DNA of 64,000 nucleotides. Origin: Arcuatula senhousia. Its lineage: Eukaryota > Mollusca > Bivalvia > Mytilida > Mytilidae. The stretch spans positions 57,908,867 through 57,972,866 of the forward strand of contig OZ020303.1 in assembly GCA_963971305.1 (NCBI GenBank). Reading direction: 5' to 3'. Under the pieces are notes generated by a model. It did not search any database, was not told the DNA's origin, and saw only the letters and a program-made list of their open reading frames with translations. Of this stretch, positions 422 through 63,200 are shown piece by piece (the first letter of the stretch is position 1; the number at the start of each line of letters is the position of its first letter). Position numbers and translations under genes: made by a program.

Positions 422-545
422 CAATGGTCGGTTATGACCAGAACATGGTGGTTGTATGATGCAGAGAACCAATGTGCATTCAGATCAGCTCACAAGTTAG
501 CCAAATATCTTCAGGGAAAACACAAACCAATATATCATCCTCTTA
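422..545 (+). CDS. MRPL13: MRPL13 exon (QWSVMTRT... to HPL-S)
   Basis: Acceptor tttttttcag ends at 421; donor gtaagt begins at 546. Phase 0 in, phase 1 out (split Ser codon A|GT). The 3' part from 489 onward is the founding copy of the 83-bp array that follows. Confidence 0.93.
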
Positions 546-3500
546 GTAAGTACCCCTCCATTGGTGCTTGTCTCACAAGTTAGCCAAATATATTCAGGGA
601 AAACACAAACCAATATATCATCCTCTTAGTAAGTACCCCTCCCTTGATGCTTGTCTCACAAGTTAGCCAAATACCTTCAAGGAAAACACAAATCACTATA
701 TCATCCTCTTAGTAAGTACCCCTCCCTTGGTGCTTGTCTCACAAGTTAGCCAAATATATTCAGGGAAAACACAAACCAATATACCATCCTCTTAGTAAGT
801 ACCCCTCCCTTGATGCATGTCTCACAAGTTAGCCAAATACCTTCAAGGAAGACACAAATCACTATATCATCCTCTTAGTAAGTACCCCTCCCTTGATGCA
901 TGTCTCACAAATTAGCCAAATACTTTCAAGGAAAACACAAACCAATATACCACCCTCTTAGTAAGTACCCCTCCCTTGATGCATGTCTCACAAGTTAGCC
1001 AAATACCTTCAAGGAAAACACAAACCAATATATCATCCTCTTAGTAAGTACCCCTCCCTTTATGCTTGTCTCACAAGTTAGCCAAATACCTTCAAGGAAA
1101 ACACAAACCAATATATCATCCTCTTAGTAAGTACCCCTCCCTTGATGCTTGTCTCACAAGTTAGCCAAATACCTTCAGGGAAAACACAAACCAATATATC
1201 ATCCTCTTAGTAAGTACCCCTCCCTTGGTGCTTGTCTCACAAGTTAGCCAAATGCCTTCAGGGAAACCACAAACCAATATATCATCCTCTTAGTAAGTAC
1301 CCCTCCCTTGGTGCTTGTCTCACAAGTTAGCCAAATACCTTCAGGGAAAACACAAACCAATATATCATTCTCTTAGTAAGTACCCCTCCCTTGGTGCTTG
1401 TCTCACAAGTTAGCCAAATGCCTTCAGGGAAACCACAAACCAATATATCATCCTCTTAGTAAGTACCCCTCCCTTGATGCATGTCTCACAAGTAAGCCAA
1501 ATACCTTCAAGGAAAACACAAACCAATATATCATCCTCTTGGTAATTACCCCTCCCTTGATGCATGTCTCACAAGTTAGCCAAATACCTTCAAGGAAAAC
1601 ACAAACCAATATATCATCCTCTTAGTAAGTACCCCTCCCTTGGTGCTTGTCTCACAAGTTAGCCAAATACCTTCAGGGAAAACACAAACCAATATACCAT
1701 CCTGTTAGTAAGTACCCCTCCCTTGGTGCTTGTCTCACAAGTTAGCCAAATACCTTCAAGGAAAACACAAACCAATATATCATCCTCTTAGTAAGTACCC
1801 CTCCCTTGGTGCTTGTCTCACAAGTTAGCCAAATACCTTCAGGGAAAACACAAACCAATAAACCATCCTCTTAGTAAGTACCCCTCCATTGATGCTTGTC
1901 TCACAAGTTAGCCAAATATCTTCAGGGAAAACACAAACCAATATACCATCCTCTTAGTAAGTACCCCTGCCTTGGTGCTTGTCTCACAAGTTAGCCAAAT
2001 ACCTTCAAGGAAAACACAAACCAATGTACCATCCTCTTAGTAAGTACCCCTCCATTGATGCTTGTCTCACAAGTTAGGTAAATACCTTCAAGGAAAACAC
2101 AAACCAATATATCATCCTCTTAGTAAGTACCCCTCCCTTGGTGCTTGTCTCACAAGTTAGCCAAATACCTTCAAGGAAAACACAAACCAATATATCATTC
2201 TCTTAGTAAGTACCCCTCCCTTGGTGCTTGTCTCACAAGTTAGCCAAATACCTTCAAGGAAAACACAAACCAATATACCATCCTCTTAGTAAGTACCCCT
2301 GCCTTGGTGCTTGTCTCACAAGTTAGCCAAATACCTTCAAGGAAAACACAAACCAATATACCATCCTCTTAGTAAGTACCCCTCCCTTGGATCTTGTTGT
2401 AGGAAAACATGTCTGGGCTTTCAATTAATCCAAATACAATAGACAATATCCAAATTTTTTATGCCCCACCTTGCAAGTAGGGAACATATAGTGTTTGGGT
2501 CCTTTCATCCGCCTGTCTCATATTTTGCCAGATGCATGCGTTATGTCTTTTGGACATATTCTTGTTCAGACTTATAAATTAACACATTTACAATAAATAG
2601 TTATACAAAAATAAAAATACATTTGTATCATGGACTTTGGGTTTTGATCTGTACATGTTTATATTGTATACTAATATGAGTTGGGAAATGTTTTAGACAT
2701 TTGTAAACAATATCTGAAATGGGGAAATTGGGTTACACAATAAATCTCATTTTTGATGTTATTTTCCTTGTGACATTATATATAATATACGAAACATATA
2801 TACATGTATCATAATGTCAGTAAGACACAATGATCCCGTCTGTTATGAATTTAAGCTGATCACAAAATTTGGAAGTTTAATTTGAAGTTATCTCTTTTCA
2901 TTTAAACAGGTGATGTTGGTGACCATGTTGTAGTAATAAATACAAGTCTGGTAGCCATGAGGGATGATAGATGGAGAAAATATACATATCACCACCATAC
3001 TGGGTAATACACAACAAATGTACATTCAAAGGGTTCTTGTCTGATTAAAATCAGCCCATAACTTGCTCCTTAACAATGATTAAGGTCTGAAGAGACTACC
3101 AGTATATTATTTAAAATTCATAGTTGATGTCATTGACATGTGGCCCCATATGGAGTTTTATCAGACCTAAATGCAGTGTTCTCCCCAGGCCCTTATAGCA
3201 TCTCGGGACCGAGACGCTATCGTAATTTGCCGAGATGCTATCAGTCTTTACCGAGACGCTATTTCAAATTGTTAAAAATACAAAGGTATTGAGTTGACGT
3301 CCTTATGAAGCCACTGACTGATTGATGATCATTGAGTAATTGACACATTTACAACCCCAAGCCAATTAACAAAGAAATCAATGATCATGGTTTTGTCAAT
3401 TAATTAGGAAATATCGATCTTTGAACTGATTAGCCATACAGATTGCAGGTGAAGTGAATTATTTCTATTGGATATTGGACAACCGACCAGGACCAATAGG

Positions 3501-9307: not shown

Positions 9308-10919
9308 TAGCTCACCTGACCCAAAGGGTCATGTGAGCTTTTGTCATCACTTTGCGTCCGTCGTCTGTTAACTTTTAACCTCACCTGGCCACAGGCCATG
9401 TGAGCTATTGCCATCACTTGACGTCCGTAGTCGTCGTTAACTTTTCTTCAAATTTCTTCTTCTCTGAAACGGCTGCACAGATTCAAACTAAATTTCATCT
9501 GGTGGTACTTTAGGATATCCCCCACAGAACTGTTTTGGGGATTTTTGATTTGTCAAAACACATGGCCGCCGTTGCAAAAAATAGACCAGGGGGTCAGACT
9601 ACTGTTTTTGGCTTGTAAATCAAAAAAGCTTATGCCATCACTATGCGTCCGTCGTCTGTCGCCGTCCGTTAACAATTTCAAAAATCTTCTTCTCTGAAAC
9701 CCCCGTACCAATTTAACTGAAACTTTGCAGGAATGATAAATGACATGTTGGCAACAAACAATCCTCATTTTAAAATGATTCAATAAAAAACATGGCCATT
9801 GATGCTAAAAATAGAACATAAGGTAAAATCACTTAACATGGCTTATAACTCAGCAACCATAACAGATAGAAAAAATCTGAAGGATCTTAGTCTCTTCAGA
9901 ATGAAAAGCTCTACAAAAGTCTCAAAGTTGTCAGATAACCTTTAATAGGGATTATGGCCCTTTAAAGGCCAAAAATAGCGCCGTTTTTCATGTTTTTGCC
10001 CTATAGAATGAAACTTTTGCAGATAGAGAACAGCTGTTGCTTGCTTAAATGTTTAGCTCATTAAGCTCTACAATAGTCTCCATAAGGTCGAAGTTATCAG
10101 ATGATCCCTTATTATAGAGGTTACAGCCCCTTTAAGGCGAAAAATGGTCTATAGAATGAAAACTATTGCAGTTAGAGTAAAGCTTTGCTTGCCTAAATGT
10201 TCAGCTAATTTAGCTCTGCAAAAGTCTCAATAAGGTCAAAGTTGTCAGATGACCCCTTATAGGAGTTACAGCTCCTTAAAAGTCGAAAAATAGTGTTTTT
10301 TGGCCTATAGATTGAAAACTTTTGCAGATAGAGAAAAGCTGTTGCTTGCTCAAATGCTCAGCCCATTTAGCTCTACAAAAGTCTTCGTAGGGTCGAAGTT
10401 GTCAGATGACCCCTTATAGGGGTTACAGCCCCTTAAAGGCAAAAAAATAGTGTTTTTGGCCTATAGAATGAAAACTATTGCAGATAGAGAAAAGCTGTAG
10501 CTTGCTAAAATGTTTAGCTCATTTAGTTCTACAAAAGTCTCCATAAGGTCAAAGTTTTTAGATGACATCTTTAAGGGGTTATAGCCCCTTAAAGGTGAAA
10601 AATAGCATTTTTTCATGTTTATGGCCTATAGAATGAAAACTATTGCAGATAGAGAAAAGCTGTTGCTTGCTTAAATGTTGAGCTCATTTAGCTCTACAAA
10701 AGTCTCCATAGGGTTGAAGTTATCAGATAACCCCTAATAGGGGTAATAGCCCTTTTAAAGTTGAATAATAGTGTTTTTGCTTATTTAGAATGAAAACTAT
10801 TGCAGATTGAGAAAAGCTTTTTCTTGCTTAAACATTCAGCTCTTTAGCTATACAAAAGTCTTCATAGGGTTGACATGAAGGCCAGGTAAGCGATTCAGGC
10901 TCCTAGGAGCTTCTTGTTT
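9308..10919 (+). mobile_element. Hairpin-ended tandem-core element, 'tagctcacctg' family
   Basis: Left end tagctcacctgacccaaagg folds on itself (agctcac...gtgagct). Right end carries ggctcctaggagc followed by cttgttt. The core is a run of diverged ~150-bp units with the phrase cagatagagaaaagctgttg. Two nested left ends near 9308 and 9380 suggest one copy inserted in another. Resembles bivalve 'pearl'/Helentron-derived elements by architecture; that family link is an inference. Confidence 0.65.
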
Positions 10920-14952: not shown

Positions 14953-15710
14953 TATGTCTCCTCCCACTTTTGTGGGGAGACATATTGTTTTTGTTGTGTC
15001 CGTCTGTCCGTCACAAAGTTTGTCAGCGCAACTCCTCTGAAACTACTGAACCGAATTCAATGAAACTTGTTATATAGGAAGTACTTCATTTGTACTTGTG
15101 CATCTTACCAGGAAATTTTGATCCTCAAAGTTTTGTGGGAGTTATGGCCCTTTGAACTTTGAAAATTGCTGAAAATCCTCATTTATCTTGTCCTCTGAAA
15201 CTAATGAACCAAATTCAATGAAACTTGGTATATATATAGGAAGTACACCACATGTAGTTGTGCATCTTACCAGGAAATTTTGATCCTCAAATTTTTGTGG
15301 GAGTTATGGCCCTTTGAACTTAGGAATTTGCTGAAAATCCTCATTTATCATCTTGTCAGCGCAACTCCTCTGAAACTACTGAACCAAATTCAATGAAACG
15401 TGGTAAAAATGAAGGACACCATATGTATTTGTGCATCTTACCAGGAAATTTTGATCCTCAAATTTTTGTGGGAGTTTTGGCCCTTTGAACTTTGGAATTT
15501 GCTGAAAATCCTCATTTATCATCTTGTCAGAACAACTCCTCTGAAACTACTGAACCAAATTCAATGAAACATGGTAAAAAGGAAGGACACCATATGTAGT
15601 TGTGCAATATGACCAGGAAATTTTGATCCTCAAATTTTTGTGAGAGTAATGGCCCTTTGAACTTAGAACTTTTTGGGGAAACGGGGGGGGGGGGGGACAT
15701 CGTTTTTGTA
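14953..15710 (+). mobile_element. Hairpin-ended tandem-core element, 'tatgtctcctccc' family
   Basis: Left end tatgtctcctcccacttttg continues tggggagacata, forming a terminal hairpin. The core has about four ~165-bp units containing accaggaaattttgatcctc and actcctctgaaactactgaa. A run of 14 G at 15683-15696 lies near the right end. Confidence 0.6.
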
Positions 15711-24118: not shown

Positions 24119-24220
24119 TCATAAAAATTCTCTTTCAACATACAAAGACACAGTTTTACAGTTTTGCATAGAGCTGACGGCCTCATCATGCTGGACAGTA
24201 CTAAAATCTTGCCCATTCAC
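24119..24220 (-). CDS. LRRC7/ERBIN-like: LAP exon w18: end of PDZ and stop
   Basis: Encodes [20 protein letters not shown] to YVEREFL and TGA (24119-24121). The protein ends right after the PDZ domain, as in other LAP proteins. A longer overlapping frame to 24004 is out of frame. Confidence 0.93.
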   Translation of the reverse strand: MNGQDFSTVQHDEAVSSMQNCKTVSLYVEREFL

Positions 24221-27200
24221 CTGTAAGTAAAAAAAGATGTCTAATAAGGTAACAAGATTTGGTACATGTAGCTGGGCACTTAACTTAAATAAATAAGCAG
24301 CAATTTCATAAAGAGAAACAGCTAGTAGCTTTCAACATGGGACAAGTGGACAGTTGTGGCTATTTGGAAATGACCCTAAATTATAAAATTAATACGTACA
24401 ATACACATCCATATACTAAGAACACTTTCGCTGTTGCAAAAATGTGTGTTGGATGTTTTAAGAGAGTATATTTATAGATGTACCAAACACAATCATAAAA
24501 GTTTGTTAAAGAAATAATCAAAAGTCAATTTTAGAGTTTAATAGCGACAGAATTTGAAACTGTCCATCAAATGAACTAGATAATGTGTCTATGAGCCACA
24601 GGATGGCCCTCCCGTTCTTGAAATAACATTGACCCTCAATGTGTATTACCTGGGATATGGACCTTTACCAAGAAATTAATCAAAAGTGTTCATGTGTAAA
24701 ATATAGGTCTGAGGTCGCTGTGACCTTATTTCTGGTGGGTGGACCATGTTACCAAGACTCATCGAGTAGTGAAATATTATTGACCCCTAACATGTAGTAC
24801 ATGTATTCAAGATATGGACCTTAACCAAGAATTTAACCAAAGTCATTCATGCGTAAAATATAGGTAACAGTGACCTCATTTCTAGTGGATGATGTCACCT
24901 TGCCCACGACACATCTAGTGGTGAAATATCATTGACCCCCAACACCTAGTATCCAAGTTATGGACCTTAATCAAGAACTTAACCGAAGTCGTTCATGCAT
25001 AAAATATAGATCACAGTGACCTAATTTTTATTGGATGGTGTCATGTTACCCAAGACACATCTAGTGGTGAAATACCATTGACCATCAACATGTAGTATCT
25101 GAGATATGGACCTTAACCAAGAACTTAACCAAAGTCATTCATGCGTAAAATATAGGTCACAGTGACCTAATTTCTAGTGGGTGGTCACCTTACCTAAGAC
25201 ACATCTAGTAGTGAAATATCATTGACCCCCAACATCTAGTATCCAAGTTATGAACCTTAACCATGAACTTAACCGAAGTCGTTCATGCATAAAATATAGG
25301 TCACAGTGACCTAATTTCAAGTGGTTGGTGTAGCCCTACCCAAGACCCATCTGGTGGTGAAATATCATTGACCCCAAACATCTAGTATCCGAGTAATGGA
25401 CCTTAACCAAGAACTTAACCAAAGTGTTACGGACGGACGGACAAGGGTAAAACTATATGTCCGATCCACATACGTGGTCGGGCCATAAAAAGTTAATTGA
25501 CAAGCTGTGTTTTGAAAGAATAAATTGAAAGCTTAAAAATTAAACTATGAAAGGGGAAATTACAAATGTAACCCTATAATAAAGAACACTAACAGTATGT
25601 GAATTAAATCACATGATTATGATAGAACACACACAGATACAACAAACTTCACTGCAAACTCAAATCATAATTCAATTATACTCTGAAGAACTCTATAATG
25701 ACCAAAGGTAACTCAGGGCTGCCAACTTTTGATATTTTGAAATCAGCTAGGTTTTTGATTATTTTTGTGATGTTTCATGTACGTTATATTCATAATAAAA
25801 TATTAAGACCTGAAAATCGGGAAAATCAAGAACAAGAGGCTCCCAGGAGCCTGAATTGCTCACCTGGCCTTGATGTCAACCCTATGAACTTTTGTATAGC
25901 TAAATGAGCTGAATGTTTAAGCATGAAAAAGTTTTTCTCTATCTGCAATAGTTTTCATTCTAAATAATCAAAAAACACTATTATTCAACTTTTAAGGGGC
26001 TGTTTCCCCTATAAAGGGTTATCAGACAACTTCAACCCTATGGAGACTTATGTAGAGCTAAATGAGCTGAACATTTAAGCAAGCAACAGCTTTTCTCTAT
26101 TTGCAATAGTTTTCATTCTTTAGGCCATAAACACTATTTTTCGCCTTTAAGGGGCTTTAACCCCTATAAAGGGTCATCTGACAACTTCGACCCCATGGAG
26201 ACTTTTGTAGAGCTAAATGAGCTGAACATTTTAGCAAGCAACAGCTTTTCTCTATCTGCAATAGTTTTCATTCTTTAGGCCAAAAACACTATTTTTCACC
26301 TTTAAGGGGCTGTAACCCCTATAAGGGGTCATCTGAAAACTTCGACCCTATAGAGACTTTTGTAGAGCTAAATGAGCTGAACATTTAAGCAAGCAACAGC
26401 TTTTCTCTATCTGCAATAGTTTTCATTCTTTAGGCCAAAAACACTATTTTTCACCTTTAAGGGGCTGTAACCCCTAAAAGGGATCATCTGACAACTTGGA
26501 CCAAATGGAGACTTTTGTAGAACTTTTGATGCTGAAGCAGTAGGCTGGCATCAGATTTCATCTATCTCTTATACTTTTTGATTTACAAGCCAAAAACAAT
26601 AGTCTGACCCCCCTGGTCTATTTTTAGTAACGGTGGCCATATTTTTGGACGGATCAAAAATTGAAACACAAGTTTGGTGCAGGACACCCTAAGGATCATT
26701 CATACCAAGTTTCATTAAATTCTGTTCTGAAGTTTCAGAGGAGAAGATTTTTGAACAAGAGGCTCCCAGGAGCCTGAATCGCTCACCTGGTCTTAATGTC
26801 AACCCTTTGAAGACTTTTGTATAGCTAAATGAGCTGAATGTTTAAGCAATAAAAAGCTTTTCTCTATCTGCAATAGTTTTCATTCCAAAGCAAAAAAACA
26901 CTATTTTTCACCTTTAAAGGGCCATAACGCCTTAAAGGGGTCATCTGACAACTTCGACCCTAAAAAGACTTTCGTAGAGCTAATTAAGCTAAACATTTAA
27001 GCAAGCAACATCTTTTCTCTATCTGCAAAAGTTTTCTTTCTTTAGGCCAAAAACACTATTTTTTGCCTTTAAGGGGCCATAACCACTATAAGGGGTCATC
27101 TGGCAACTTTGACCCTATGGAAACTTTTGTAGAGCTAAATGAGCTGAACATTTAAGCAAGCAACAACTTTTCTCTATCTGCAATAGTTTTCATTCCATAG

Positions 27201-30200
27201 GCCAAAAACACTATTTTTTGCCTTTAAGGGGCCATAACCCCTATAAGGGGTCATCTGACAACTTTGACCCTATGGAGACTTTTGTAGAGCTAAATGAGCT
27301 GAACATTTAAGCAAGCAACAGCTTTGCTCTATCTGCAATAGTTTTCATTCTATAGGCCAAAAACACTATTTTTTGCCTTTAAGGGGCCGTAACCCCTATA
27401 AGGGGTCATCTGACAACTTCGACCCTATGGAGGCTTGTGTAGAGCTAAACGAGCTGAACATTTAAGCAAGCAACAGCTTTTCTCTATCTTCAATAGTTTT
27501 CATTCTATAGGCCAAAAACTCTATTTTTTGTCTTTAAGGGGCCATAACCCCTATAAGGGGTCATCTGACAACTGTGACCTTATGGAGACTTTTGTAGAGC
27601 TAAATGAGCTGAACATTTAAGCAAGCAACAGCTTCTCTCTATCTGCGATAGTTTTCATTTCATAGGCCAAAAACATGAAAAAATGCTATTTTTCACCTTT
27701 AAGGGGCCGTAACTCCCATAAGGGGTCATCTGACAACTTCGACTCAATGGAGACTTTTGTAGAGCTTTTGATGCTGAAGCAGTAGCGTGGCATCAGATTT
27801 TATCTATCTCTTATACTTTTTGATTTACAAGCCAAAAACAGTAGTCTGACCCCCCTGGTCTATTTTTAGCAACAGCGGCCATGTTTTTCGACGAATCAAA
27901 AATCCCCACATCAGTTTTGTGGGGGATACCCTAAAGTACCACCAGACCAAATTTGGTTTGAATCTGTGCAGCCGTTTCAGAGGAGAAGAAGTTTGAAGAA
28001 AAGTTAACGAGGACGACGACGGACGACGACGACGGACGACGACGAGGACGACGGACGCCAAGTGATGGCAATAGCTCACATGGCCTTTGGCCAGGTGAGC
28101 TAAAAATTGTTAACAGACGACGACGACGACAGACAACGACGACGGACGCCAAGTGATGGTAATAGCTCACATGGACCTTCGGTCCAGGTGAGCTTAAAAT
28201 TGGGACAGTTGGCAGCCATGGTAACTTTTGAGAAAAAAAAAATCAAATTAATCTATTCTTTTTACCTTTTCATATAAATTTATTAATATGCAAAAATGAA
28301 AGGTTTTAGTTGGATAGATTACGATGATGACACAGTGGGTTATAAAGGAGCGGGTTTCAATGTCTTACGCTCATCCTCAGTAATAGGGTAAAAGAAGTGG
28401 GTATCAAATTGTGTGTTTTCATGTCCTGACTGAAAAATTATTACATGTGTGTATATTCATTTGTTTTTAAATGATGACTGACAACAATTCATAGGCTAGC
28501 ATCATTTTTGTCAGTGATAGATAGATGCAAAACGTATGTTATCCAAAAAAAAAAAAATCTTCTACTAAGTTAATCTACGGCTATTCTAAAATCTAACCAT
28601 GCAATCAGTTCATAGTTAATACCTCTATAAGTTTTATTTTTGAAAGGAGATCGATTTCATGGTTTTCGTGGGCCAGTCAATTTTAGTCTTGATTACATAT
28701 AAAGATTCCATATTACTTATTATATTTTACTGTGGACAGGCGCAAATTCAGACAGGGGCAACCCAACACGTGCCCCCTCTTAAAATAAAAAAAAAAATTG
28801 TTATATACTGTCATGACTGTGTATAATCTTTTTTTTTAATGGAAAAATACCCATAGAATTTTCTTTAGTGCTTCCCCGCTAACATCAAATCCAGAGTGTA
28901 TCTGCTCCAGGTGGATTTTTTAAATTTTCATTATTTCTCAAAAAAATTTTGTGGTTTGCAGATGTTGCTCAAAGTTATAATGTAAAATGAACACTTCGTT
29001 AGTTTCTTATATTCATGGTTGAATGACACCTACAAAAACCACGAAAATTGGTACCTCACAAAATAATTATCAAGAAACTAAAGTTTACGTTTGATCTTTA
29101 CCTCAAGCACTTTATCCCCTGGCCGTAGAGACATAGCTGCAGGGCCGTCAGACGAAACCTTCGTTATAAATATACCCTGAAATACAAACAGACACACGGT
29201 TATACAATGTACAAATTATGAAACAGATTGTAAAATTATGAAGTGAGAATGAAGTCAGGGTGAAATAAGAGTTAGATAATGTCTCTTACACAACTTTCTA
29301 AAATATCCTACCAAACTACTGAAACATTATTTGTCAACCAGAAGCAAACTGGTGACTAATAACTACTTTAAGGGTTCCAGATACTCTCATATTTAAGGAT
29401 ATAGCATAAAGATAAGCGATATACGTACATACATACATTTAACATAGGCAACATTGAACAATATTAATGTTTACAGACATTTTTATGGTTTCATTTTTCC
29501 TGTATGAGCTAGGGTATAATAAAGCAATACGACAAATTATACAGATATAAATAAAAATAGAAAAGCTGGTAAAAATAATTCTTAAAGCTAACTAATAAGC
29601 AAATTCTGATCTCTTGACCCTATTTATACTTAAACAAGAATATGTCCAAAAGATAATGCCCAATCTTGCAAGACTTGGGACAGAGGAATGGACCTGAACA
29701 CTTCCAGTAAATGACCCCTTTCGTAGATGGGGCATACAAAAGAGTCTCTCTAATCAACAAGAAATCATAAAATGCTTTTCAAAGAACATCCCTCTTCGTG
29801 ATATGTTCCAACTGGACTTTAAAAGTGTACTTTTGAATCCATGCAATAATATGTCATAGTTAAAAATTTTAGAAACCATGAAGTCCTAAATTTTAGAAAC
29901 CATGTAAAGCAACTGAATAGTTTTGAAATTCAGAAACCATGCAAAAGCAAATGACATAGTTCTGAATTTCAGAAACCATGCAAAAGCAAAGTGTATAAAA
30001 AAAACACTGCGGACATTATAGGAAGGTTGATAAAAAGTTCAACATTGAAATATTATGACAGCATGAAAGAAAGGATAAGGTTTTACCAACACCAATGATT
30101 GTTAAGGAGTTAATTTAAGTTATTTTTGTACAAAATGAAGTTAGGACACACTCACTTTATCATCGGGTCTGTATGGGTTACCATGGGAACCGATTCCGCC

Positions 30201-33200: not shown

Positions 33201-36200
33201 CATAAGGTGAAGTCCTATTTGGAGTAGTAGGGAGTTTCCGTGGTACCACTTGCCCTTGTAAATATGGTGGGGCAGGCTTGTAAGGTGGAGGTCTGTCAGT
33301 TGGTGAACTATTTTGCTGTACCTGTAAAAAGGTAAAGAATTATGAGTAAGACTTAAAAGCATTTAAACTTTTGCACTTTTGTCAACAGCTATATTTATGT
33401 GTACCTAAGAAAAATCTGAGATTTTATTATTTTGTTTTTGCATTGCAACTCAGCAAGTTGGAAGTAAATGCTTTTATTTTGGTAAAGTTATATGCTGCTT
33501 TTAGAATGATAACTGAAATGCTGACCCTTTTCTATGTTTCATTTTCTTTATATTGAAGAACCTTGAATCTCTTTTATAAAGAAACACCAGTTACAGCAAA
33601 ACTTTAATCTGAATACATGTTAGGGGCATATTTATCAAAATGGTGGTAGTTTTTCATTGTGAATATTTAAAATGTGGTTGTGTCACATAAAATTATTCCA
33701 CATTTCATTATCTTCTATCCAATACATTCTTCAACCATAATGCTTTCTGATTGGTCCATGCATACTAACCCTGCTATGACCTTGTGGAAGTTTATCACTA
33801 TACATATCTTTCCGCCAATCAGAAGTTCTGAATTCATTATCATCATTACTACCACTAGCACTATTTGACCTTGACCTTGAAGTGTTAAAATTAAATCCAG
33901 ATGGAGGATCGGAAGAAACGGGAGTACTTTGGTCCATTATTTTCCCATGATGGAATTGACTAGGTGAAGGCGGCTGATATGCCAAAGATTTATTTTCCAA
34001 AGATTTATTGTGCTGTAGTTGTTGAGAATACAATTCATCATTCCTCACTACAACTCTCCTATTATGAGATAATTGTGGAGTCCGACTTTTGTTCATGTCA
34101 TGATTAACACCACTATTTTGTGGAGTCCGATTTGTAATTTCAGCGTAAGGGTTAACACCACTACTTTGTGGAGTCCTACTTGCACTTTCAGCAAAAGGAT
34201 TAGCACTACTTTTTTGTGGAGTCCGATTTGCACTCTCAGCATAGGGATTAACACTATCAACATGCTGAGACCTATTCATGTTTTCTCCTTGAGAATTTCG
34301 ATTCATGTTCTGCTGATTATTGTTCAAGTTGTATGGAAGACTGTTAGACTTAGACTGATTCTGTAGAGGTTGTTGTTGAATGCTATACCCTGCACTTTGT
34401 TGATTTCTTAGAGAGTACCCCTCTACATCGCTATTGTATCCATCCTTACCCCTAGGTTTCCTTGGAGTTATTGTGATACTAGCTTCACCACCATACTGAG
34501 CTAACATTTGCTGCCTTCTATATTTGGTAACTTCAGTCTCACTTCGGTAACCCGTATCAGAATCATAATCACGATTACTTCGATGTCTGCGATGATGAGG
34601 CTGTGGTGTGCTCATTGGAGCATAACCATATTGAGAAAATGATTTTGCCAGTTCATGTGGTGAAGCGTATGCAAAACCAGGGGATTGTGGGTAGGGTTTG
34701 CCTCCCCTTGCCTCCTGGTGTTGGGAAATGTTTGGATTTGATCCATATGAATTACGACGTTCATGTTGCGAAAATCCTCCATCATCCTCATCTGAGCCAT
34801 TTATCTTCTTATCCTTGTCTCTCCCTGAAACAAACAGAAAATCATCACTTCAGATAATGTTAATCAAAATGAAAGAACCTTAGTGAGCACGTTCACATAC
34901 CCCACGCATTCCGCTATTTGACTATCAATGTTATCCTTGAGGAATTAGTATCGAGCTACAGGAATCAATACTATTGAATGATTGTAAAAGTGAATGTGCA
35001 AGTATTTGAATACATGTATCATAACAAAGTTATGTCAAATTTCTAAGTCCAAAGGGCCATAACTCCCACAAAAATTTGGGGATATAAAATTCCTGGTAAC
35101 ATGCACAACTATATATGGTGTACTTCTTGCATACCAAGTTCCGTTAAATTCTGTTCAGTAGTTTAAGAGGAGTTTCGATCACAAACTGTAATTATGATTT
35201 TCTGCAAATTTCTAAGTCCAAAGGGTCATAACTCCAACAAAAATTTGCTGATCAAAAATTCCTTGTAACATGCACAACTACATATGGTGTACTTCTTGCA
35301 TACCAAGTTTCGTTAAATTCTGTTCAGTCGTTTAAGAGGAGTTGCGATTACAAACTTTGATCACAGACGGACAGACGGACGGACCAGTCAAAAACATTAT
35401 ACCCTTCGCAACTTCGTTGCGTGGGGTATAATAATGTACACATATGTCCTAACCTAAAAACATACAAAGCATTTATAATTCAAGTATCCTTTTTTAATAG
35501 GTGGTGAATAGATGATAATAAGTATTAAGCACTGAAATGTCAAATGAACAGCCAATTAACATTACAAAATATCACTGCTTAAAGCTTAAATTTTCAATAC
35601 TGTGGTTTCATATTTTCTTAAGGTATAAATTTTTGTAGTTTTGGTGGGTGAGGCTGACCCCCAAAATTTTGTTTGCTATGAAGAAAATTCAAGCATTGCA
35701 TTGCATATTGCAAATTTTAAAACCCACCAACTGGCCTCTTTTTAGCAATGCACGTAAATTGGTAGCCAGGAAAATATATACATTGTCAAATCCACAGTAT
35801 ACAATTTTGCCAATTTACAATTGATAGAAATTTTACAGATGAAAGACAGACATAAAGTCAAGGTGATTTTATTAACCCCGAAACTTTTTATGCAGGGTAA
35901 TAAGGAATATTCACATACTTGTGACATTGTTTTGAGAGTTAATGTCCAACCATTGAGCTTCACATTGGATATATCTTTTTTTTTTGTGTGTTTATTTCTT
36001 ACAACAACTCACTCTAAAGTTACCATCACACTGAATAAACATACCTTTCCTGGGAGTGACAGGAGGTTTCATATCTTGGGAGAATTCCCCACTCTGTCTT
36101 TTAGCTCTCTCTTTTGACAACCTGACTTGTGATAAATCTAAAACCATGTTTTCCTCAGCTGAGTTCTGTCTGTGATGGTGCATCCTGGCTTTGTCTTTAG

Positions 36201-39200: not shown

Positions 39201-42200
39201 TTTCTATCAGGCCAAAACAAAATATATGTTTGTTTCCTGCTTCCTACTCTTGAAAATAAGGGAAGGTAGATAGGAATTTCTTTTTTTTTTTACAAAATTA
39301 TTTTACATTAAGTCAATGGGGAAGCAATCCCAATTCTAACGGTGCTTGTCCAAAAATGCCAATAAAAACTTTAGGTAGGGTAAAAAAAATAGGGTAGGTA
39401 GGGAAGCAGGAAACAGACATTTATTTTTTTTGTTGGCCTCATTGATATTGAAATAATGTTCATTAATTGACTGGTATAATTCTTAATATTTATATTTTCA
39501 TCATGAACTTTTAGCAGGAGGAAATGCAAAGAAAGTATCTATTGAATTAAAAGCTTATATTTCAATATCTCGACTTTACCCTATTCCCAAATGCTTAAAA
39601 ATATATTTAACAACCCATTATAAAAGCATATTTCTTTTTTGTTAGATAACAACACAGCTTTTCCTACAACTTCCCATTTCATTTGCCCATTTTGTATTTT
39701 GTATTTTTTTTTTCAATGCTAGAAATAGCTATACAATATGTTAGTGCATGCAAAACAAAACAAGACATGATAGTAAATAATTTGATATAATGGCAGTATG
39801 AGACAAATTTTTACAATATCACATGCAAATATTCTCTCTTTCAGAGCCATGAGCAACAAACAAACACCATGCTTTCAAGCAGTATATTTGCACAAAGCAT
39901 GTGGTGAAATGAGTAACATGACAAACAGATTGATGATTCAAATATGATATTATCAAAAGCTGGTGCTTTAAAGATTTTTTCTATATAAATTTCTAGTATA
40001 AACATCATAGTTCGTCGCTTCCAAGCTTTAAGGGCTTTTCCAGGAAAATATAACAAAGGGAGCAGGAACTCTATTCAATTATTATTTCCTTGGTGGTGGG
40101 TTAACCCTCTTGCTGCCATATTAAAATTTTGAATGACGTCGCCAACGCCACAATGTTGTGACGTTACAATAGCGAAACGCCAGAATCTTTGATGAAATAT
40201 GACGTCTTTTTTTATTTTTGACTATGCTACGGTTACAATACATTGAAAACAACTTTTATATTCGATTCCATATTGTTTGTGAGATATTTTTCTGTCATAA
40301 AATGCCGCTCTTATATATTTTGAACCAGTGTGTTTAATTATCAGGAATGATTTAGTTGCATGTAATATTTTGGTCCGATGGACACATATGTCCGTGTGGC
40401 AGCCAACCGATAGTGGACACATATGTTCCTTTGGCAGCGAGCCGGTAGTGGACACATATGTCCTTTTGGCAGCAAGAGGGTTAAATATGTTTCTAAATGC
40501 TTGAAAGATGTTAAAAAGATTATCAAAATTTTTATCGACGTACCCTAAATGTAGAGGTGAGTTCCGACTCCTAGTACACTTTTTCCTGGAAAAGCCCTAA
40601 GATATGGATTCATACTAGAAATCTAACAATTACAGATTTATTATATCTTAAAAACTTTAAATTGAGCATAAAACTTCACAAATCCTGAATATTCCCTTGC
40701 ATTACATCTGAAGAATAGCCACATGTCTGATGCTGAAAAGGACAAGGTATGATAAGGGCTGTTTTTGGCCCCTTCATCAAAAGTGAAATTTTATGCTCAA
40801 AAATTAATTTATATGATATTAAATAATGAAAGTTGATAAATTTGAATGTTTTAAACAAATTATAGATCCAATCTGATTTTAGCATTCAATCAAACTTGAC
40901 GAAAAGTGACTTTTTCTCACAAATACTCAAAATTTGGTATATTTTTGTATGTTTTTGGCTCAAATAACTATGAGCGGACAAGCAGCCCACAAAAATATTC
41001 TAACTATGGAATTGGCATACAAAAACTAATATTTCCAGAAATTATCTTTGTGGACCGCAGGTCCGCTCATATTTAAATTTCACAAAAACCATTGTCATTT
41101 TAACAATTTTAAGCCAATTTTGCTACATTTCGTAGTTATATCATTAAAGGCACATGGGTAATTACGCCAAATGTCAAATTTTCAATAAAATTGTACTTGT
41201 TCCAAAAAATACAACTTCTGAATCACAAAATCACACCGTTATAATTCAATATTCCGATTTTGGAAAATTTGAGCAATTTAGGGGGGCCAAAATCGTCTTC
41301 TTATCCTATCTTGTCCTTTTTTGTATTTTTTGAAAGGCTTAATTGTTACTAAGTCAGAACCAATGATAATTGTATTTTTTCAGAAGTTTCTACCATTTTT
41401 TCTCTTCTTGAAAATTTGTGATTGACCAACCTTATAAGGTAATTTTTTTGCTATCTTTTAGTAGGACTCCCACAAGGTCAAACGGACTTACAAATGTACC
41501 CTTCTGGGGGCCCCCTTATTCAAAAGTGTTTGCAAAGTCTTTTAACATAAATTTAGATGGTACCTGATCATCCATATCATCAGCAAATTCAAAATGTATT
41601 TGCTGCCTCTTCTCTCTCTCCTCCTCCCACATGGAAGGGTGGAAACTATCAGTGTCTCCGCCATGATCAACACCTAGAAAGAAAAGATAAAGCCATATGA
41701 CCATAAACTTCACCAGTATATTAAGAATATGATCATAAACTTCACCAGTATATTAAGAATATGATCATAAACTTCACCAGTATATTAAGAATATGATCAT
41801 AAACTTCACCAGTATATTAAGAATATGATCATACACTTCACCAGTATATTAAGAATATGATCATACACTTCACCAGTATATTAAGAATATGATCATACAC
41901 TTCACCAGTATATTAAGAATATGATCATACACTTCACCAGTATATTAAGAATATGATCATACACTTCACCAGTATATTAAGAATATGATCATACACTTCA
42001 CCAGTATATTAAGAATATGATCATAAACTTCACCAGTATATTAAGAATATGATCATAAACTTCACCAGTATATTAAGAATATGATCATAAACTTCACCAG
42101 TATATTAAGAATATGATCATACACTTCACCAGTATATTAAGAATATGATCATAAACTTCACCAGTATATTAAGAATATGATCATAAACTTCACCAGCATA

Positions 42201-45200
42201 TTAAGAATATAGTTTACATTATATTATGGGACACCATGATCAACACCTGAAAGTAAAATATAGTCATATGATTGTAAACTTCACCAGTGTATGAGAATAT
42301 AGTTTACATCAAATCAAAGCAAATGTGTAGCTATTTCTATTCTACCATCTTTTCTAAGCCTATTTTCTTCATTTGAAATTGATCATCCTTGTTCCGTAGT
42401 TTTGTAATTGCTTTTATTTAGTAAAATAATAATGTTGAAACTGTGCATTATGTCTAAAAATAACTTACCATGTGTGTTACCAGGTTCCTGAGGAAGGAGG
42501 TAACAGGTGAGGATTTTTCTACCTGTGTCAGGTATTACATCATGTCTATAAATAACTTACCATGTGTGTTACCAGGTTCCTGAGGAAGTAGGTAACAGGT
42601 GAGGATTTTTCTACCTGTGTCAGGTATTACATCATGTCTATAAATAACTTACCATATATGTTACCAGGTTCCTGAGGAAGGAGGTAACAGGTGAGGATTT
42701 TTCTATCTGTGTCAGGTATTACATCATGTCTATAAATAACTTACCATGTGTGTTACCAGGTTCCTGAGGAAGTAGGTAACAGGTGAGGATTTTTCTACCT
42801 GTGTCAGGTATTACATCATGGCTATAAATAACTTACCATGTGTGTTACCAGGTTCCTGAGGAAGAAGGTAACAGGTGAGGATTTTTCTACCTGTGTCAGG
42901 TATTATATCATGCCGATAAATAACTTACCATGTGTGTTACCAGGTTCCTGAGGAAGAAGGTATCAGGTGAGGATTTTTCTACCTGTGTCAGGTATTATAT
43001 CATGTCTATTAATAACTTACCATGTGTGTTACCAGGTTCCTGAGGAAGGAGGTAAAAGGTGAGGATTTTTCTACCTGTGTCAGGTATTACATCATGTCTA
43101 TAAATAACTTACCATGCGTGTTACCAGGTTCCTGAGGAAGAAGGTATCAGGTGAGGATTTTTCTACCTGTCTCAGGTATTACATCATGTCTATAAATAAC
43201 TTACCATGTGTGTTACCAGGTTCCTGAGGAAGGAGGTAACAGGTGAGGATTTTTCTACCTGTCTCAGGTATTACATCATGTCTATAAATAACTTACCATA
43301 TGTGTTACCAGGTTCCTGAGGAAGGAGGTAACAGGTGAGGATTTTTCTACCTGTGTCAGGTATTACATCATGTCTATAAATAACTTACCATGTGTGTTAC
43401 CAGGTTCCTGAGGAAGAAGGTATCAGGTGAGGATTTTTCTACCTGTGTCAGGTATTATATCATGTCTATTAATAACTTACCATGTGTGTTACCAGGTTCC
43501 TGAGGAAGGAGGTAAAAGGTGAGGATTTTTCTACCTGTGTCAGGTATTATATCATGCCGATAAATAACTTACCATGTGTGTTACCAGGTTCCTGAGGAAG
43601 AAGGTATCAGGTGAGGATTTTTCTACCTGTCTCAGGTATTACATCATGTCTATAAATAACTTACCATGTGTGTTACCAGGTTCCTGAGGAAGGAGGTAAC
43701 AGGTGGGGATTTTTCTACCTGTCTCAGGTATTACATCATGTCTATAAATAACTTACCATGTGTGTTACCAGGTTCCTGAGGAAGTAGGTAACAGGTGAGG
43801 ATTTTTCTACCTGTGTCAGGTATTATATCATGTCTATAAATAACTTACCATGTGTGTTACCAGGTTCCTGAGGAAGGAGGTAACAGGTGGGGATTTTTCT
43901 ACCTGTCTCAGGTATTACATCATGTCTATAAATAACTTACCATGTGTGTTACCAGGTTCCTGAGGAAGTAGGTAACAGGTGAGGATTTTTCTACCTGTGT
44001 CAGGTATTATATCATGTCTATAAATAACTTACCATGTGTGTTACCAGGTTCCTGAGGAAGTAGGTAACAGGTGAGGATTTTTCTACCTGTGTCAGGTATT
44101 ACATCATGTCTATAAATAACTTACCATGTGTGTTACCAGGTTCCTGAGGAAGTAGGTAACAGGTGAGGATTTTTCTACCTGTGTCAGGGTCATGGTCAGA
44201 TTGAAGAGGAACTAATGGACGTGTCTAAAAAAATACAAAATATAATGAGTCATACACATATAATTGATAAAGATGAAAAAAATGTATTAACTTCTCAGGG
44301 CTAAAAATTTGATGGGTGATAACTTCAAATGCCTTCAACCCCACCCTCCATGTAATTGCTAAGTGCAAGTTCATTATTTTTTTTTTTAAACAGAATTCAT
44401 AAGAAATCATCTTGAGGAAAAACTGGGCTTTTATTTTGGTAAATAGACCCTATATACTTAGCAAAATGTCATGATCTGCCCATGTTAATTCACAAAGCTT
44501 TATACATTTTATGATGAAAAAATTTGGTCTGAATATTTTACCTGATTCTCAGAAAGCCAAAGAGCTTGTAGTTCTGTAAGCTTGATAAAAGTGAATGGTA
44601 AACATTTTAACACATTGTCACTGAGATTTAGCACACGTAGACGTGGGATACGACCAATTTCATCAGGAATGTACTCCAATTTGTTACTCCTGAGGGATAG
44701 CACTGTTATACCATTACAACTGCCAAGCTGAAAAGAGAAATTGAAGATAATTTTCAAAGTTATATTGTAAAAGGTGAGATTTTCATACAGGCTTTTGTTT
44801 TTTTGTATTTCAAGTAATTAATAATTCACCAAAAAGAAAAAAACACACTGACGTTGATTTACATGTTAATGGCAATAAAAATAAGATGTTTCACAAAAAT
44901 TAAACCTGACACACACATTTTAAAACAAGCACATTTGCAAAATTAAAACCAAGCGAAAATATTCCAGATATTATAGAAAGTAATTGTATCTTGTGAATAG
45001 ACTAAAGTTCATTCTAATTTCATCTGATTTGTTTTGTTGGTGTTCGAGCTAGGTTAATCATTTCATCAATTTGTCTGCAATTAGATATACATTATCAGTT
45101 GTTTTTCTTTTATTATTAAATAACGCTTAAAGTGTCATTTGAATTTCTGTTAAACAAGACTTTTTTCATAATGTATATTCAGGAGTTTCAGTAAGCCTTT

Positions 45201-57200: not shown

Positions 57201-60200
57201 TGTGAGAAAAACTTTCCTTTATACATACAAATTTTTCATTCTACATCAAAAGAAAAATATTTTCTTGCAACCAATACACATAAAAGTAATTGTTTGACAA
57301 CAGAGCCTTTAATCCCAAAGTGTAACAATATTCAACCAAATTTGGACAAGGTTCACAAAAATTGTAACAAATATTGGTTATGTAACATGCACGAGTGTCT
57401 TATAATTAAGCTTAAACAGATGTTGGGTAAAATGGCCACCCACTCTCAATGTCTCTTCAAACCCCTTTGAATGTATGTATATCATCAAATGACCGATTCA
57501 AGGAACACAAAAAATCTTATTGAACAATCCTAGTTCAATTTTGCACTTCAGTACATGCATGACTATTTTGACAATATTTTCTCATTACAACAAATCACGT
57601 CAACATTTTGTAATCATTTTCTCTACAGGACAAAATGAGATTTGATGCAGTTTTTATTCAGAAAGCCTGCATGCCTATTTGAAGTGTGGTCGATGATTTA
57701 CGATAACTTTTCTAGATTATACATGTACAGAGTAGTTGATATTTATTCATCAATATTATGTATTGTGAGTTGTGGGTGGATTGTTCACATAAATAACACA
57801 AAAGCAACATATCCTTATCTCAACACATTCAAAAGTTCAATGTGTACAATATGCATAATAAATAATAATAATATGCACTATAAAGATCCGTTTTATTTTG
57901 TTTGTGTTACCATGATGTGCAAAACAATGACAAGCTGTACTGTGAACTAGATATTCATACTTATGAATTTGGTGTTTTTTTATGGAAAAGCCAAGAATTA
58001 ACTTAGGTCTAATAGAACTAAAATAAGCAAAGAGCAATTTTAAATCAGCACATAACTGACAAAGGAAAAGGTAAATCTTCGTTTAAAATACCTAAAACAG
58101 AATTATTTCCAAAACACATGATGCCCTACGAGTGACTTCAACCTGACTGTAAATTTGATTTGGATAGGACGAACAAACGGACCCACTAACACTATATGTC
58201 CCTCTTCTTTTGTACTAACCATATGTACCCTTTTGCTTTATATTTTTACAATGGACTAGATATTGCCAATGAAGGACTTTTGATTAAATGATTTCAGAGG
58301 TTTTTTTATTGAAAAGGGAATATAATTTCCTCTGTTAATTTAACATGATACATACTGGAGTGATCTGTGCAATTTGGTTGTTGTCGCACCATAATTCTAG
58401 AAGACTCACTAAGTTACCAATAACATCAGGCTGAAAAATAAGTAACAAGTATATCAATTAAATGATTGCAGTTCTGATTCAGTTGACAAAGTATCAATTT
58501 TTCTTAAATGTGTTTTCGGAATCCATAGCTGTTTGAAATGCACATTTTCAAATATTTATGTTCTTCTAGATAGATATTTTATGCAAAGTAATTGCAAAAT
58601 AATCTTTTTTTTCCCTAATAATTTCGTCAAAATGATATTAATCATTTCAAAATGCTGTATCATAAATCATAAAATCGAGTCTCCTTTTTTATGCTAAGGC
58701 AGACTTAGAACTACTGTCAAAAGGTTAAAATTGTTAATTTTTCTTTAAAAGGATACATGTATCAATAATGATAAAATAGTTTACATATTCATTTAAGATA
58801 AACATTAATTTTCTTTAAAATGTAAAAACTTCAAAGTCTTTTATGAATACATTCAAATTACCAACTTGTTATTTTTTTAGGGTGGATTTGACCTATATTT
58901 GCGAACAGTTCATATTACCCCCTGAAACTTGGGGCTGTTCCAGAATTAAACATGTGGGGGGAGAGTCGGGAGGAACTCCTATTACATATATGGTGGGTGT
59001 TTTAGAAATATTTTGTGATTAGTTACAATGATAAACAAGAGTTAACACCTAAGTATGTCTCGCCTGCCGGCACCATCAGAAATAATTATTCTTTCTTACT
59101 TCCACTATATTTTGAATTAACATGGATTTTCAGTTTCTGAGATCAAAAGATGTTTATAGAACTTAAACATTGCAAATATATGCAATAAAAATAATCAAAG
59201 TCACTCAACCGGAAAATCAAGGTCAAGGTCAAAAGATGGGGATGCAACTGTGCTAAGCTACTACTGGGGCATATGTATACCAAGTTTCATCAACCTAGGT
59301 CCTATAGTTCTTGAGATATGGAGGTGCTCGCAAAACTTTTCCATTCCTATTATATGTATTGAAAATTGTCAAAGTCACTCAACCGAAAAATCAAGGTCAA
59401 GGTCAAAAGATGGGGATGCAACTGTGGTAAGCTACTACTGAGGCATATGCATACCAAGTTTCATCAACCTAGGACCTATAGTTCTTGAGATATGGAGGTG
59501 CTCGCAAAACTTTTCCATTGCTATTATATGTATTGAAAATTGTCAGTCACTCAACCGGAAAATCAAGGTCAAGGTCAAAAGATGGGGATGCAACTGAGCA
59601 AAGCTACTACTGGGGCATATGCATACCAAGTTTCATCAACCTAGGACCTATAGTTCTTGAGATATGGAGGTGCTCACAAAACTTTTTCATTGCTATTATA
59701 TGTATTGAAAATTGTCAAAGTCACTCAACCGAAAAATCAAGGTCAAGGTCAAAAGATGGGGATGCAACTGTGCTAAGCTGCTACTGGGGCCTATGCATAC
59801 CAAGTTTCATCAACCCAGGACCTATAGTTCTTGAGATATGGAGGTGCTCATAAAACTTTTCCAAAAAGTTGCTGCCTCCGCCGCCAGTAAAGTAACACCT
59901 ATGTCCCGCTCTGCTTCGCAGGCGAGACAAAAATGAAAGAACCTTAGTGAGCACGCTCACATACCCCACGCGTTCCGCTGTTGGACTATCAAAGTTATCC
60001 TTGAGGAATTAGTATCAAGCTACAGGAATCAATAATATTGAATGATTGTAAAAGTGAATGTGCAAGTATTTGAATACATGTATCATAACAAAGTTATGTC
60101 AAATTTCTAAGTCCAAAGGGCCATAACTCCCACAAAAATTTGGGGATAAAAAATTCCTGGTGATATGCACAACTACATATGGTGTACTTCTTGCATACCA

Positions 60201-63200
60201 AGTTTCGTTAAATTCTGTTCAGTAGTTTAAGAGGAGTTTCGATCACAAACTGTAATTATGATTTTCTGCAAATTTCTAAGTCCAAAGGGTCATAACTCCA
60301 ACAAAAATTTGCTGATCAAAAATTCCTTGTAACATGCACAACTACATATGGTGTACTTCTTGCATACCAAGTTTCGTTAAATTCTGTTCAGTAGTTTAAG
60401 AGGAGTTGCGATTACAAACTGTAATCATGAATTTCTGCAAATTTCTAAGTTTAAAGGGCCACAACTCCAACAAAAATTTGCAGATGATCAAAAATTCCTG
60501 GTCATATGCATAACTACATACAGTACACCAAGAGACATACCCTGACTGATCACCGTGATAGTGGTACACCACTCTTAGAGACATAACAAATATCTTTTTT
60601 GTTGTTAAAGATTTTAAAAAAATTCTTTTTACATTTTGAAGGAATGATTTTACAGAACAATTTCCAAAAAGAATTTTTGAAAAATCTTTAACCACAAAAA
60701 AGATATTTGTTATGTCTCTAAGAGTGGTGTACCACTATCACGGTGTTCAGTCACGGTATGTCTCTTGGTGTACTGTATGGTGCACTTCTTGCATACAAAG
60801 TTTCGTTAAATTCTGTTCAGTAGTTTAAGAGGAGTTGCGATTACAAACTGTAATCATGATTTTCTGCAAATTTCTAAGTCCACAGGGCCATAAGATAACT
60901 CCAACAAAAATTTGTGGATCAAAAATTCCTGGTGATATGCACAACTACATATGTTGTACTTCTTGCATACCAAGTTTCGTTAAATTCTGGTCAGTAGTTT
61001 AAGAGGAGTTGCAATTACAAACTGTAATCATGATTTTCTGCAAATTTCTAAGTCCAAAGGGCCATAACTCCCACAAAAATTTGCTGATCAAAAATTCCTT
61101 GTAACATGCACAACTACATAAGGTGTCCTTCTTGCATACCAAGTTTCGTTTAATTCTGTTCAGTAGTTTAAGAGGAGTAGCGATTACAAACTGTAATCAT
61201 GATTTTCTGCAAATTTCTAAGTCCAAAGGGCCATAACTCCCACAAAAATTTGCTGAACAAAAATTCCTTGTAACATGCACAACTACATATGGTGTACTTC
61301 TTGCATACCAAGTTTTGTTAAATTCTGTTCAGTAGTTTAAGAGGAGTTGCGATTACAAACTTTGATCACAGACGGACGGACCAGTCAAAAACAAACGAAG
61401 TTGCGAAGGGCATAATAATTATTTTTTGATGGGTGGTGGGGTAAAGAAAAAAGTGCCTCCCAACCCCCCACACATTTAATTCTGGAACAGCCCTTACAAT
61501 TTTTACCATAAAAATCTATCAAGTTATTAAAAGTGATCACATCATCTATAAACAGACAGGAAGAAAAAAAAGCTTCTGTGCAAAGGCTTCACTTAAAATG
61601 GCATGAAGGATCCAGGATTTCAGTTTAAGGGAGGTGAAAATATTGTTTTTCGTCAAGCAAAGCAAGACACAAAAATAATTAAGTGATTTTTAGGTGGATT
61701 TTATGCAAAAAAACTTTTGTTATTCTTCCGTAAATGACTCTTTTCAGAGTGAGATGACCAGGTTGAGATGCGAGTACGTGCAGCGATCTCACACTGGTCA
61801 ATTAACCAATAGTAACCACCAGTACTGATATTGATCGATGATGTCAACCAATGAAATGCAATGTTATTATAAACTTTCGGTTTTTAAAATGAAGTCACCT
61901 AAGATTTCAAAATATAAAAATTTGATTTCTTATGGAAGAAATAAGTACTTACACACATTCTTGGAAAACAGGCAAGTATCTTTCACTTGTGATAGAATTT
62001 TTTGGGTCTTTTGACTCGTACTGCTGTGCTCCACTCACAAATAGACTGAAAAATTCTATCACTCATGAAAAATCAGCTAGTCTTTTCCAAGAATTAATGT
62101 AAGAACCTATAAGTCTTAGGGGAGGTGTTTCCTTGGATCCGCGCCTGAATGTGACAAACATATTCATACCAGCTCTGTAAATTCATTCTGCCCTATGTCG
62201 AGTCTTTCTAACTCTGTAAGCCTAGAAAATGACTTGGGCAAAGTTTTTAGATGATTCTCCCGCAATTCTAATATCTTCAACTTTGATAACCTGAAAATAT
62301 ATAAATCATGATAAATGTATATTAGTAAGAACTAAAAATGGGTCAAAGACAGAAATGGCCGGAATTTGTTAAACAGGAAGTAGATGAGTGACAGACCTGA
62401 AATCAAATCACACTTTATGGGATCCCACCCTGATGCTGTATACCAAATATCAAATGGCTGTGATAAGTAATTGCTGCGAAAACTGTTACGAAAGTTTTTT
62501 CCCCGCTCGCCGTCTGTCCGCCCGACATTCACCATTTTATAAACCTGCATTTTCACTAATGAAATCCGGCCCAAAATTATTTGGAAATCATTTCTTCAAG
62601 TTTTGATAATTAGCTAAACTTGCTTATCTTTTTTTATTCTTTCTTGAAATCACAACATCAAAATGTGCATCAAAAAGTACATGAAATCATGAAACCCAAT
62701 GTTACCCAACTGCAGTTTAACCGAAACAATGATCAGTAGCTCAGGTATCAACACTTGGCAGATGAAAATCTATTCCAATAAATTGTTGGTTTTTTTCTAA
62801 TACAAAAGTGTTAAACATCTAGAAACTGCATATAATCAATATTTTTTGTACTAACTTTGGCTTTTCTTCTCCAACTTTGTGATAAACCTTTCTTACTTAG
62901 GCTATAATAAAATTATTCCTAGATTCTCATCCAAATTTCTTGAAAATATGGGTTGGGCGGTCAAATTTTATTTTTAATTTTTTATCCATTTTGATTTAAT
63001 TTTTTGCCATTTTAAAGGAAAATGACCAAAAATGAACATAATTTGCCAAAGAGTCATAATATTTTTTTTTCATGTGGCTGAAAAAATTAAGATACTTTTT
63101 TTTTCATTACAATGTTTTAGTTCAAATTTTATTTACAAGAAGTATGCATATCAAATAATACAAGATGAAGGTATTGATTGAATCTGACTTTGGTACTTTG

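Follow-up and report, generated by a model that had tools for sequence, protein, structure and literature searches.

Minisatellites that span exon-intron boundaries are known from amphioxus, in which such elements, called 'mirages', were described in Adh3, TnC and the globin genes BflGb6 and BflGb9, with PGBD5 being compared (PMC3087553, PMC3902484). These reports state, partly on the basis of RT-PCR, that the mirages do not interfere with regular splicing (PMC3087553, PMC3902484). Their repeats take in the end of an exon, the start of an intron and the splice signals, and AG and GT occur in many of the units; 5′ and 3′ boundaries can both be hit, and concerted evolution is described for the inside of the clusters, with the exclusion of their edges. 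At the level of nucleotide sequence, the same anatomical features are shared by two arrays that we identified in a 64-kb stretch of DNA of a mytilid bivalve (the window, i.e. the whole of the sequence analysed), one in an erbin-like LAP gene and the other in the gene MRPL13. In both cases the unit spans an exon-intron boundary (64 nt of exon plus 28 nt of intron, 19 times, in LAP; 57 plus 26 nt, 23 times, in MRPL13) and carries splice signals (GTAAGT in 19/19 and AGGT in 18/19 units of LAP; GTAAGT in 22/23 units of MRPL13), while concerted evolution with divergence at the edge is indicated by the lack of a steady decay of identity and by the diverged intron end of LAP unit 19. The bivalve arrays differ from those of amphioxus in their copy number (19 and 23, versus 3 and 6 units in the two BflGb6 haplotypes), in having periods of precisely 92 and 83 bp and in their location in two genes within 64 kb; moreover, they are described here from DNA, whereas splicing was examined in amphioxus.

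The human gene IFI6 contains a minisatellite with a 12-bp repeat unit. It is a known case of repeat donors that are in use (PMC4526556). Like the arrays described here, this minisatellite has donors in its units; however, its downstream donors keep the frame open, whereas the 92-nt unit of LAP has a length not divisible by three and leads into a stop. Two further systems may be compared: (i) intron gain by tandem duplication, as in the potato RdRp gene and the TD introns of Drosophila (PMC4974935, PMC2891723), in which the duplicated segment likewise holds AG and GT (CAGGT is found in 18/19 LAP units), but the LAP piece already straddles a boundary and no residues have been added at the junction in relatives (44/44), and (ii) the internal tandem repeats of human segmental duplications, which also arose by minisatellite expansion, partly at exon-intron boundaries, but have units of about 30 bp, four repeats on average, and are located in paralogues (PMC2812944). 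For two thirds of the intron modifications in these duplications an alternative transcript was supported (PMC2812944). An abalone minisatellite was rejected as a precedent, since the portion of the text that is accessible describes it inside an intron and gives no span over an exon edge (PMC6905558). Among the open-licence PubMed Central papers listed in searches aimed at bivalves, mussels and molluscs, no boundary minisatellite of a mollusc appeared. The LAP and MRPL13 arrays are of the known mirage type, here in a bivalve. With a probability of about 0.75, we consider them to be passive boundary-spanning minisatellites of this kind, whose inner sites are spliced out unused.

The LAP gene occupies the minus strand of the window and encodes leucine-rich repeats followed by PDZ exons. 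Among named relatives, a protein of Mytilus californianus is the nearest (73% identity, with full cover of the 1047-residue query). MRPL13 (uL13m; domain PF00572) occupies the left end of the window, on the opposite (plus) strand, and its product shares 77% identity with that of M. coruscus and 79% with a protein from an 881-base ENA contig. The features discussed below are listed here (a slash within a sequence marks a splice junction):

44125..44224, minus strand: LAP exon w8, 100 nt, junction backed by protein relatives; its last 64 nt (44125-44188) form unit 1 of the LAP array
42441..44188, minus strand: LAP array, 19 units of 92 bp, each with 64 nt of exon end and 28 nt of intron start, including a GTAAGT donor
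42441-42449, minus strand: intron end of LAP unit 19, a diverged flank
42469..44125, minus strand: 19 LAP donors, last exonic base at 44125 - 92k (k = 0-18), all GTAAGT, weight matrix score 7.6 each
42234..42300, minus strand: decoy duplicate of the w9 acceptor together with the initial bases of the exon (GTGTTGATCATGG); it scores 7.1 as an acceptor, and its 'exon' would begin at 42246
41695..42210, minus strand: minisatellite of 32 bp x 16, between the genuine w9 acceptor and the decoy; the unit is similar to the intron sequence immediately before the acceptor
41564..41673, minus strand: LAP exon w9, with the genuine acceptor
422..545, plus strand: MRPL13 exon QWSVMTRTWWLYDAENQCAFRSAHKLAKYLQGKHKPIYHPL(S), the last 57 nt of which form unit 1 of the second array
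489..2397, plus strand: MRPL13 array, 23 units of 83 bp, each with 57 nt of exon end and 26 nt of intron, donor CTTA/GTAAGTAC
2910..3003, plus strand: next MRPL13 exon (SDVGDHVVVINT...), which fits the A/GT junction from 545

Several other features of the window were recorded. A coding exon of LAP contains a 48-bp repeat (34102-34254, minus strand) encoding 16-residue repeats, at which the alignment with Mytilus is gapped. The PDZ exons are followed by two possible last exons (28343-28456 and 24122-24331, minus strand), one of these candidates ending like P0121 and the other (...VEREFL) like P0122 and P0123. Degenerate repeats of about 155 bp at 9922-10870 and 25879-27766 apparently belong to one family in opposite orientations, as judged from their consensus units. 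A dispersed element family is probably represented by the repeats of about 170 bp at 15033-15672, 35036-35356, 60100-60520 and 60776-61368, which share a motif; the consensus sequences of the last three contain AAATTTCTAAGTCCAAAGGGCCATAACT. A search of the window for RNA families gave no match at the gathering threshold.

The LAP array runs, in the sense direction, from 44188 down to 42441 as 19 units with a period of exactly 92 bp (TRF score 3178; 95% match over the 19 copies), which is far outside chance. Each unit is composed of CCTGACACAG (or CCTGAGACAG), 54 nt of exon and 28 nt of intron starting with GTAAGT, and this donor is intact in all 19. The original prediction, made from this DNA without database searches, had described a 92-bp repeat of the exon end and its gtaagt donor in 18 extra copies, a 54-nt stretch after CAG, gaps of 38 nt and a G/GT junction to the exon at 41673, and all of this was borne out. 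Two details were corrected. The array had been placed at 42447..44224, but the array proper stops at 44188, the segment 44189-44224 being the unrepeated start of the exon. The string ctgacacag had been assigned to every copy; the AG ahead of the 54-nt stretch is indeed kept in 19/19 units, but the stretch is preceded by CTGACACAG in 14/19 units and by CTGAGACAG in 5/19. The GT following this AG is found in 18/19 units (CAGGT or AGGT), one copy having GAT in place of GGT.

Every LAP unit deviates from the 92-base consensus by 1 to 6 bases. In the last unit, 5 of the 6 differences fall within the final nine bases, at the return to the original intron sequence. The first 18 units carry scattered single-base variants (3.65 pairwise differences on average), their identity does not drop steadily as units lie farther apart, and unit 1 has four identical extra copies. 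This pattern is as expected if unequal exchange keeps the array alike (concerted evolution); a simple nearest-neighbour expansion was rejected because identity shows no steady fall over distance. It also bears on the idea that the assembler inflated a short array or a single boundary, for which there is a parallel in the mirage of BflGb6, reported to appear aberrantly assembled in the amphioxus draft (PMC3087553). We regard such an artefact as very unlikely here: the units are not identical but contain scattered distinct variants, there is no steady decay of identity over distance, and two unrelated arrays share one anatomy.

The frame of the w8-w9 junction is backed by relatives, with a Mytilus protein aligned gap-free across it. 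The junction is conserved, 44/44 of the best LAP relatives crossing it without an 18-residue insert and varying in length by few residues, although these proteins (like the MRPL13 relatives considered below) come from other species, are in many cases gene predictions, and may be from genes without the arrays. Across the 54-nt stretches of units 1-18 we counted 3 synonymous changes, 5 nonsynonymous changes and 1 stop, as against 2.6, 5.7 and 0.4 expected from random placement. Since the substitutions match random placement, there is no visible sign of protein-level selection on the LAP copies, which, by this pattern, evolve like non-coding DNA. Variable columns among the same units number 9/64 in the exon part and 4/28 in the intron part, and therefore give no sign of extra constraint on the exonic part, nor of special constraint on the donor-bearing intronic part.

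These data are relevant to the possibility of exon repetition, i.e. the inclusion of copies as in-frame mini-exons (18 residues in LAP, 15 in MRPL13) that would yield graded isoforms. Several properties of the arrays would permit this: the lengths of 54 and 45 nt are divisible by three, the phases match, an AG stands ahead of every LAP copy and, by arithmetic, joins that skip one copy would leave introns of 121-130 nt. The 38-nt gap between adjacent copies is probably too short for splicing, which counts against such inclusion. Furthermore, TGT has changed to TGA, an in-frame stop, in 4/18 extra LAP copies (those with tops at 43636, 43452, 43176 and 42992), there is no excess of synonymous changes, and relatives have no insert (44/44 for LAP and 39/39 for MRPL13). 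The claim that splicing could add any of the copies does not hold for the four with TGA, and the acceptors of the copies are at background level (see below). Mini-exon coding under selection was rejected, as neither the LAP nor the MRPL13 array shows a sign of it.

Splice signals were scored with a weight matrix built from 16 acceptors and 12 donors of the LAP and MRPL13 genes and applied in a leave-one-out manner; it is small and coarse, and the genuine sites range in it from -2.9 to 10.5 for donors (n=12) and from -1.9 to 16.0 for acceptors (n=16). All 19 LAP copy donors score 7.6 bits, equal to the genuine donor of exon w8. The acceptors of copies 2-19, by comparison, score from -7.8 to -9.7, which is background level: 42% of the 3362 AGs on the minus strand reach at least -7.8. 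The combination of a usable acceptor and an open frame in each copy, as would be needed for exon repetition, was thus not found in the LAP array, given these acceptors and the stops in 4/18 copies. As for intron gain, LAP offers AGGT in 18/19 units, acceptors at background and no added residues in 44/44 relatives. Most LAP units contain two further GTs (CAG/GTAGAA and CTG/GTAACA), which score 8.1 and 9.2 with the full matrix, as compared with 9.6 for the true donor; therefore, the GT in use cannot be picked out by donor score alone. Concealment of the acceptors by structure was rejected, since no clear distinction emerged when LAP units 1-6 were folded (mean unpaired probability 0.43-0.49 for GTAAGT and 0.30-0.34 for CACAGG). 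Of the three roles that the original prediction had offered for the array, silent copies with weak acceptors fit best, in view of the background AG scores, and graded exon repetition is disfavoured by the stops (4/18) and the lack of a synonymous excess; the third, a reservoir of decoy donors, is considered below. The extra LAP copies most likely stay silent, as far as these scores indicate. Taking LAP and MRPL13 together, we judge exon repetition to be highly improbable.

Read-through past the first LAP donor meets a TAA at intron bases 24-26 and ends in GKLFIDMM, so the open frame of the IFI6 type is absent from LAP. If an inner donor were used and the upstream piece retained, the reading frame would hit this stop, so that such use would be destructive rather than provide a graded reservoir; decoy donors as such are possible in principle. 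Such destructive use forms the basis of another reading, in which inner donors are sometimes chosen, the resulting 92n-nt insertions end the protein after GKLFIDMM, and nonsense-mediated decay follows, so that copy number tunes the level of LAP mRNA. The 18 extra donors of equal score, any of which would meet the TAA when used, are in keeping with it, as is IFI6, whose repeat-unit donors can be used (PMC4526556, citing Turri 1995). Nevertheless, we think it unlikely. In human pairs of near-equal donors the upstream one, which is nearest across the exon, is preferred ahead of a long downstream intron, irrespective of the length of the upstream intron (PMC9225289), and the introns flanking LAP exon w8 measure 317 and 2451 nt. 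This preference is a bias, amounting to 60% of near-equal events over all classes, and before the filter for equal strength the downstream donor was favoured by a majority in every class (PMC9225289). The amphioxus mirages, moreover, were reported not to disturb splicing (PMC3087553, PMC3902484), and the variable columns of LAP (9/64 exon, 4/28 intron) do not set the donor-bearing part apart by any special constraint.

The cluster of donors could also be imagined as a platform that binds U1 snRNP and protects the intron, there being 19 GTAAGT donors in 1.75 kb and a suppressive role of U1 having been reported (PMC3826338). This we consider extremely improbable, because the intron is merely 2.45 kb long and the intronic part of the unit bears no sign of constraint.

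The acceptor end of the same LAP intron is also duplicated. A copy of the w9 acceptor is located 573 nt upstream of the genuine one (41673), and its score (7.1) is well inside the genuine range. If the first donor were joined to this decoy (42246), the product would read GVDHGVP and then stop. The minisatellite of 32 bp x 16 (98% match) starts some 20 nt ahead of the genuine acceptor. The intron thus contains 19 donors and two acceptors, and among plain joins of one donor to one acceptor only the outermost pair keeps an open frame past the junction.

The MRPL13 array, which was not part of the original prediction, apparently arose independently of the LAP array. GTAAGT is present in 22/23 of its units, unit 13 having GTAATT. 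Counted from a TTAG, the copies are in-frame mini-exons of 45 nt that are free of stops in 22/22 extra copies, which would be in line with exon repetition. The TTAG acceptor scores -1.1 in unit 2 and between -0.3 and -5.7 among seven of the 22 extra units, the bottom of the genuine range being -1.9; with the same matrix, 14% of minus-strand AGs reach at least -1.1. Since the frames are open and the acceptors reach the bottom of the genuine range, inclusion is harder to dismiss here, and on these features the MRPL13 array is more open to mini-exon inclusion than that of LAP. Among the first 22 units, the substitutions again match random placement, with 5 synonymous changes (4.5 expected) and 0 stops (0.7 expected), and the exon part (19/57 variable columns) is not less variable than the intron part (6/26). 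All of the MRPL13 relatives examined (39/39) cross the junction without an insert.

A scan for duplicates at 44 junctions of the window (21 donors and 23 acceptors, several of the LAP positions being approximate) revealed two donors with arrays and one acceptor with a single spanning copy. Matches of 15-17 nt at three other acceptors (one at M_e2, four at L1 and one at L8) were read as chance similarity in T- or A/T-rich stretches. After merging of arrays with a period of at least 20, a junction is spanned by 2/3 of those with at least 10 copies and at least 90% match (P 0.006 under random placement), by 2/5 of those with at least 5 copies (P 0.03) and by 2/22 of the total (P 0.43). A general enrichment of arrays at exon edges was rejected, as it holds for high-copy arrays only and not for the 22 merged ones. 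These classes were picked after seeing the data, and the exon ends are partly approximate; the enrichment is therefore suggestive but does not prove a bias.

Returning to passive boundary-spanning minisatellites, we propose that a short segment across the coding exon end and its donor was tandemly duplicated, and that unequal exchange or slippage would have expanded the LAP array to 19 copies, which would have been kept homogeneous. The upstream exon would remain flush with the first donor, all extra copies would land in the intron and the gene would stay intact. Because a duplication over an exon edge puts the extra copies in the intron, it would escape the selection that removes duplications within exons. 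Exon definition would pair the acceptor at 44224 with the nearest donor at 44125, giving the exon of 100 nt, and exon w9 would be defined with its nearest acceptor (41673), not with the decoy at 42246; the intron would then be removed together with its 18 inner donors and its inner acceptor, all of them unused. Boundary arrays may thus be tolerated since, under exon definition, the outermost donor and acceptor are the ones chosen. This passive reading is favoured by the presence of two arrays of one plan (64+28 and 57+26 nt) in two genes, by the equal donor scores, background acceptors and concerted evolution of LAP, and, in both genes, by the random substitutions, the lack of extra constraint on the exonic part and the insert-free relatives; the amphioxus mirages and the human preference for upstream donors are also in its favour. 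The acceptor scores and open frames of MRPL13, a decoy acceptor whose score of 7.1 lies in the genuine range, and the limited size of the human bias, with its downstream majority before filtering, count against it.

A further suggestion, which we consider rather unlikely, is that this bivalve genome tolerates boundary minisatellites as a recurrent class, with copy number setting a low level of leakage into unproductive or mini-exon transcripts. If there were such a leak, the arrays would act as a length-variable expression dial (via decay in LAP and possibly via in-frame 15-residue inserts in MRPL13) and as a nursery for new introns and exons.

With 19 near-identical donors in one intron, of which the first alone is sensible by a plain join, LAP offers a natural test of 5′ splice site choice at equal strength. 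The occurrence of two arrays in 64 kb of bivalve DNA suggests that the 'mirages' described in amphioxus may be more widespread, and that tandem duplication at exon edges may be a tolerated route to possible new introns or exons.
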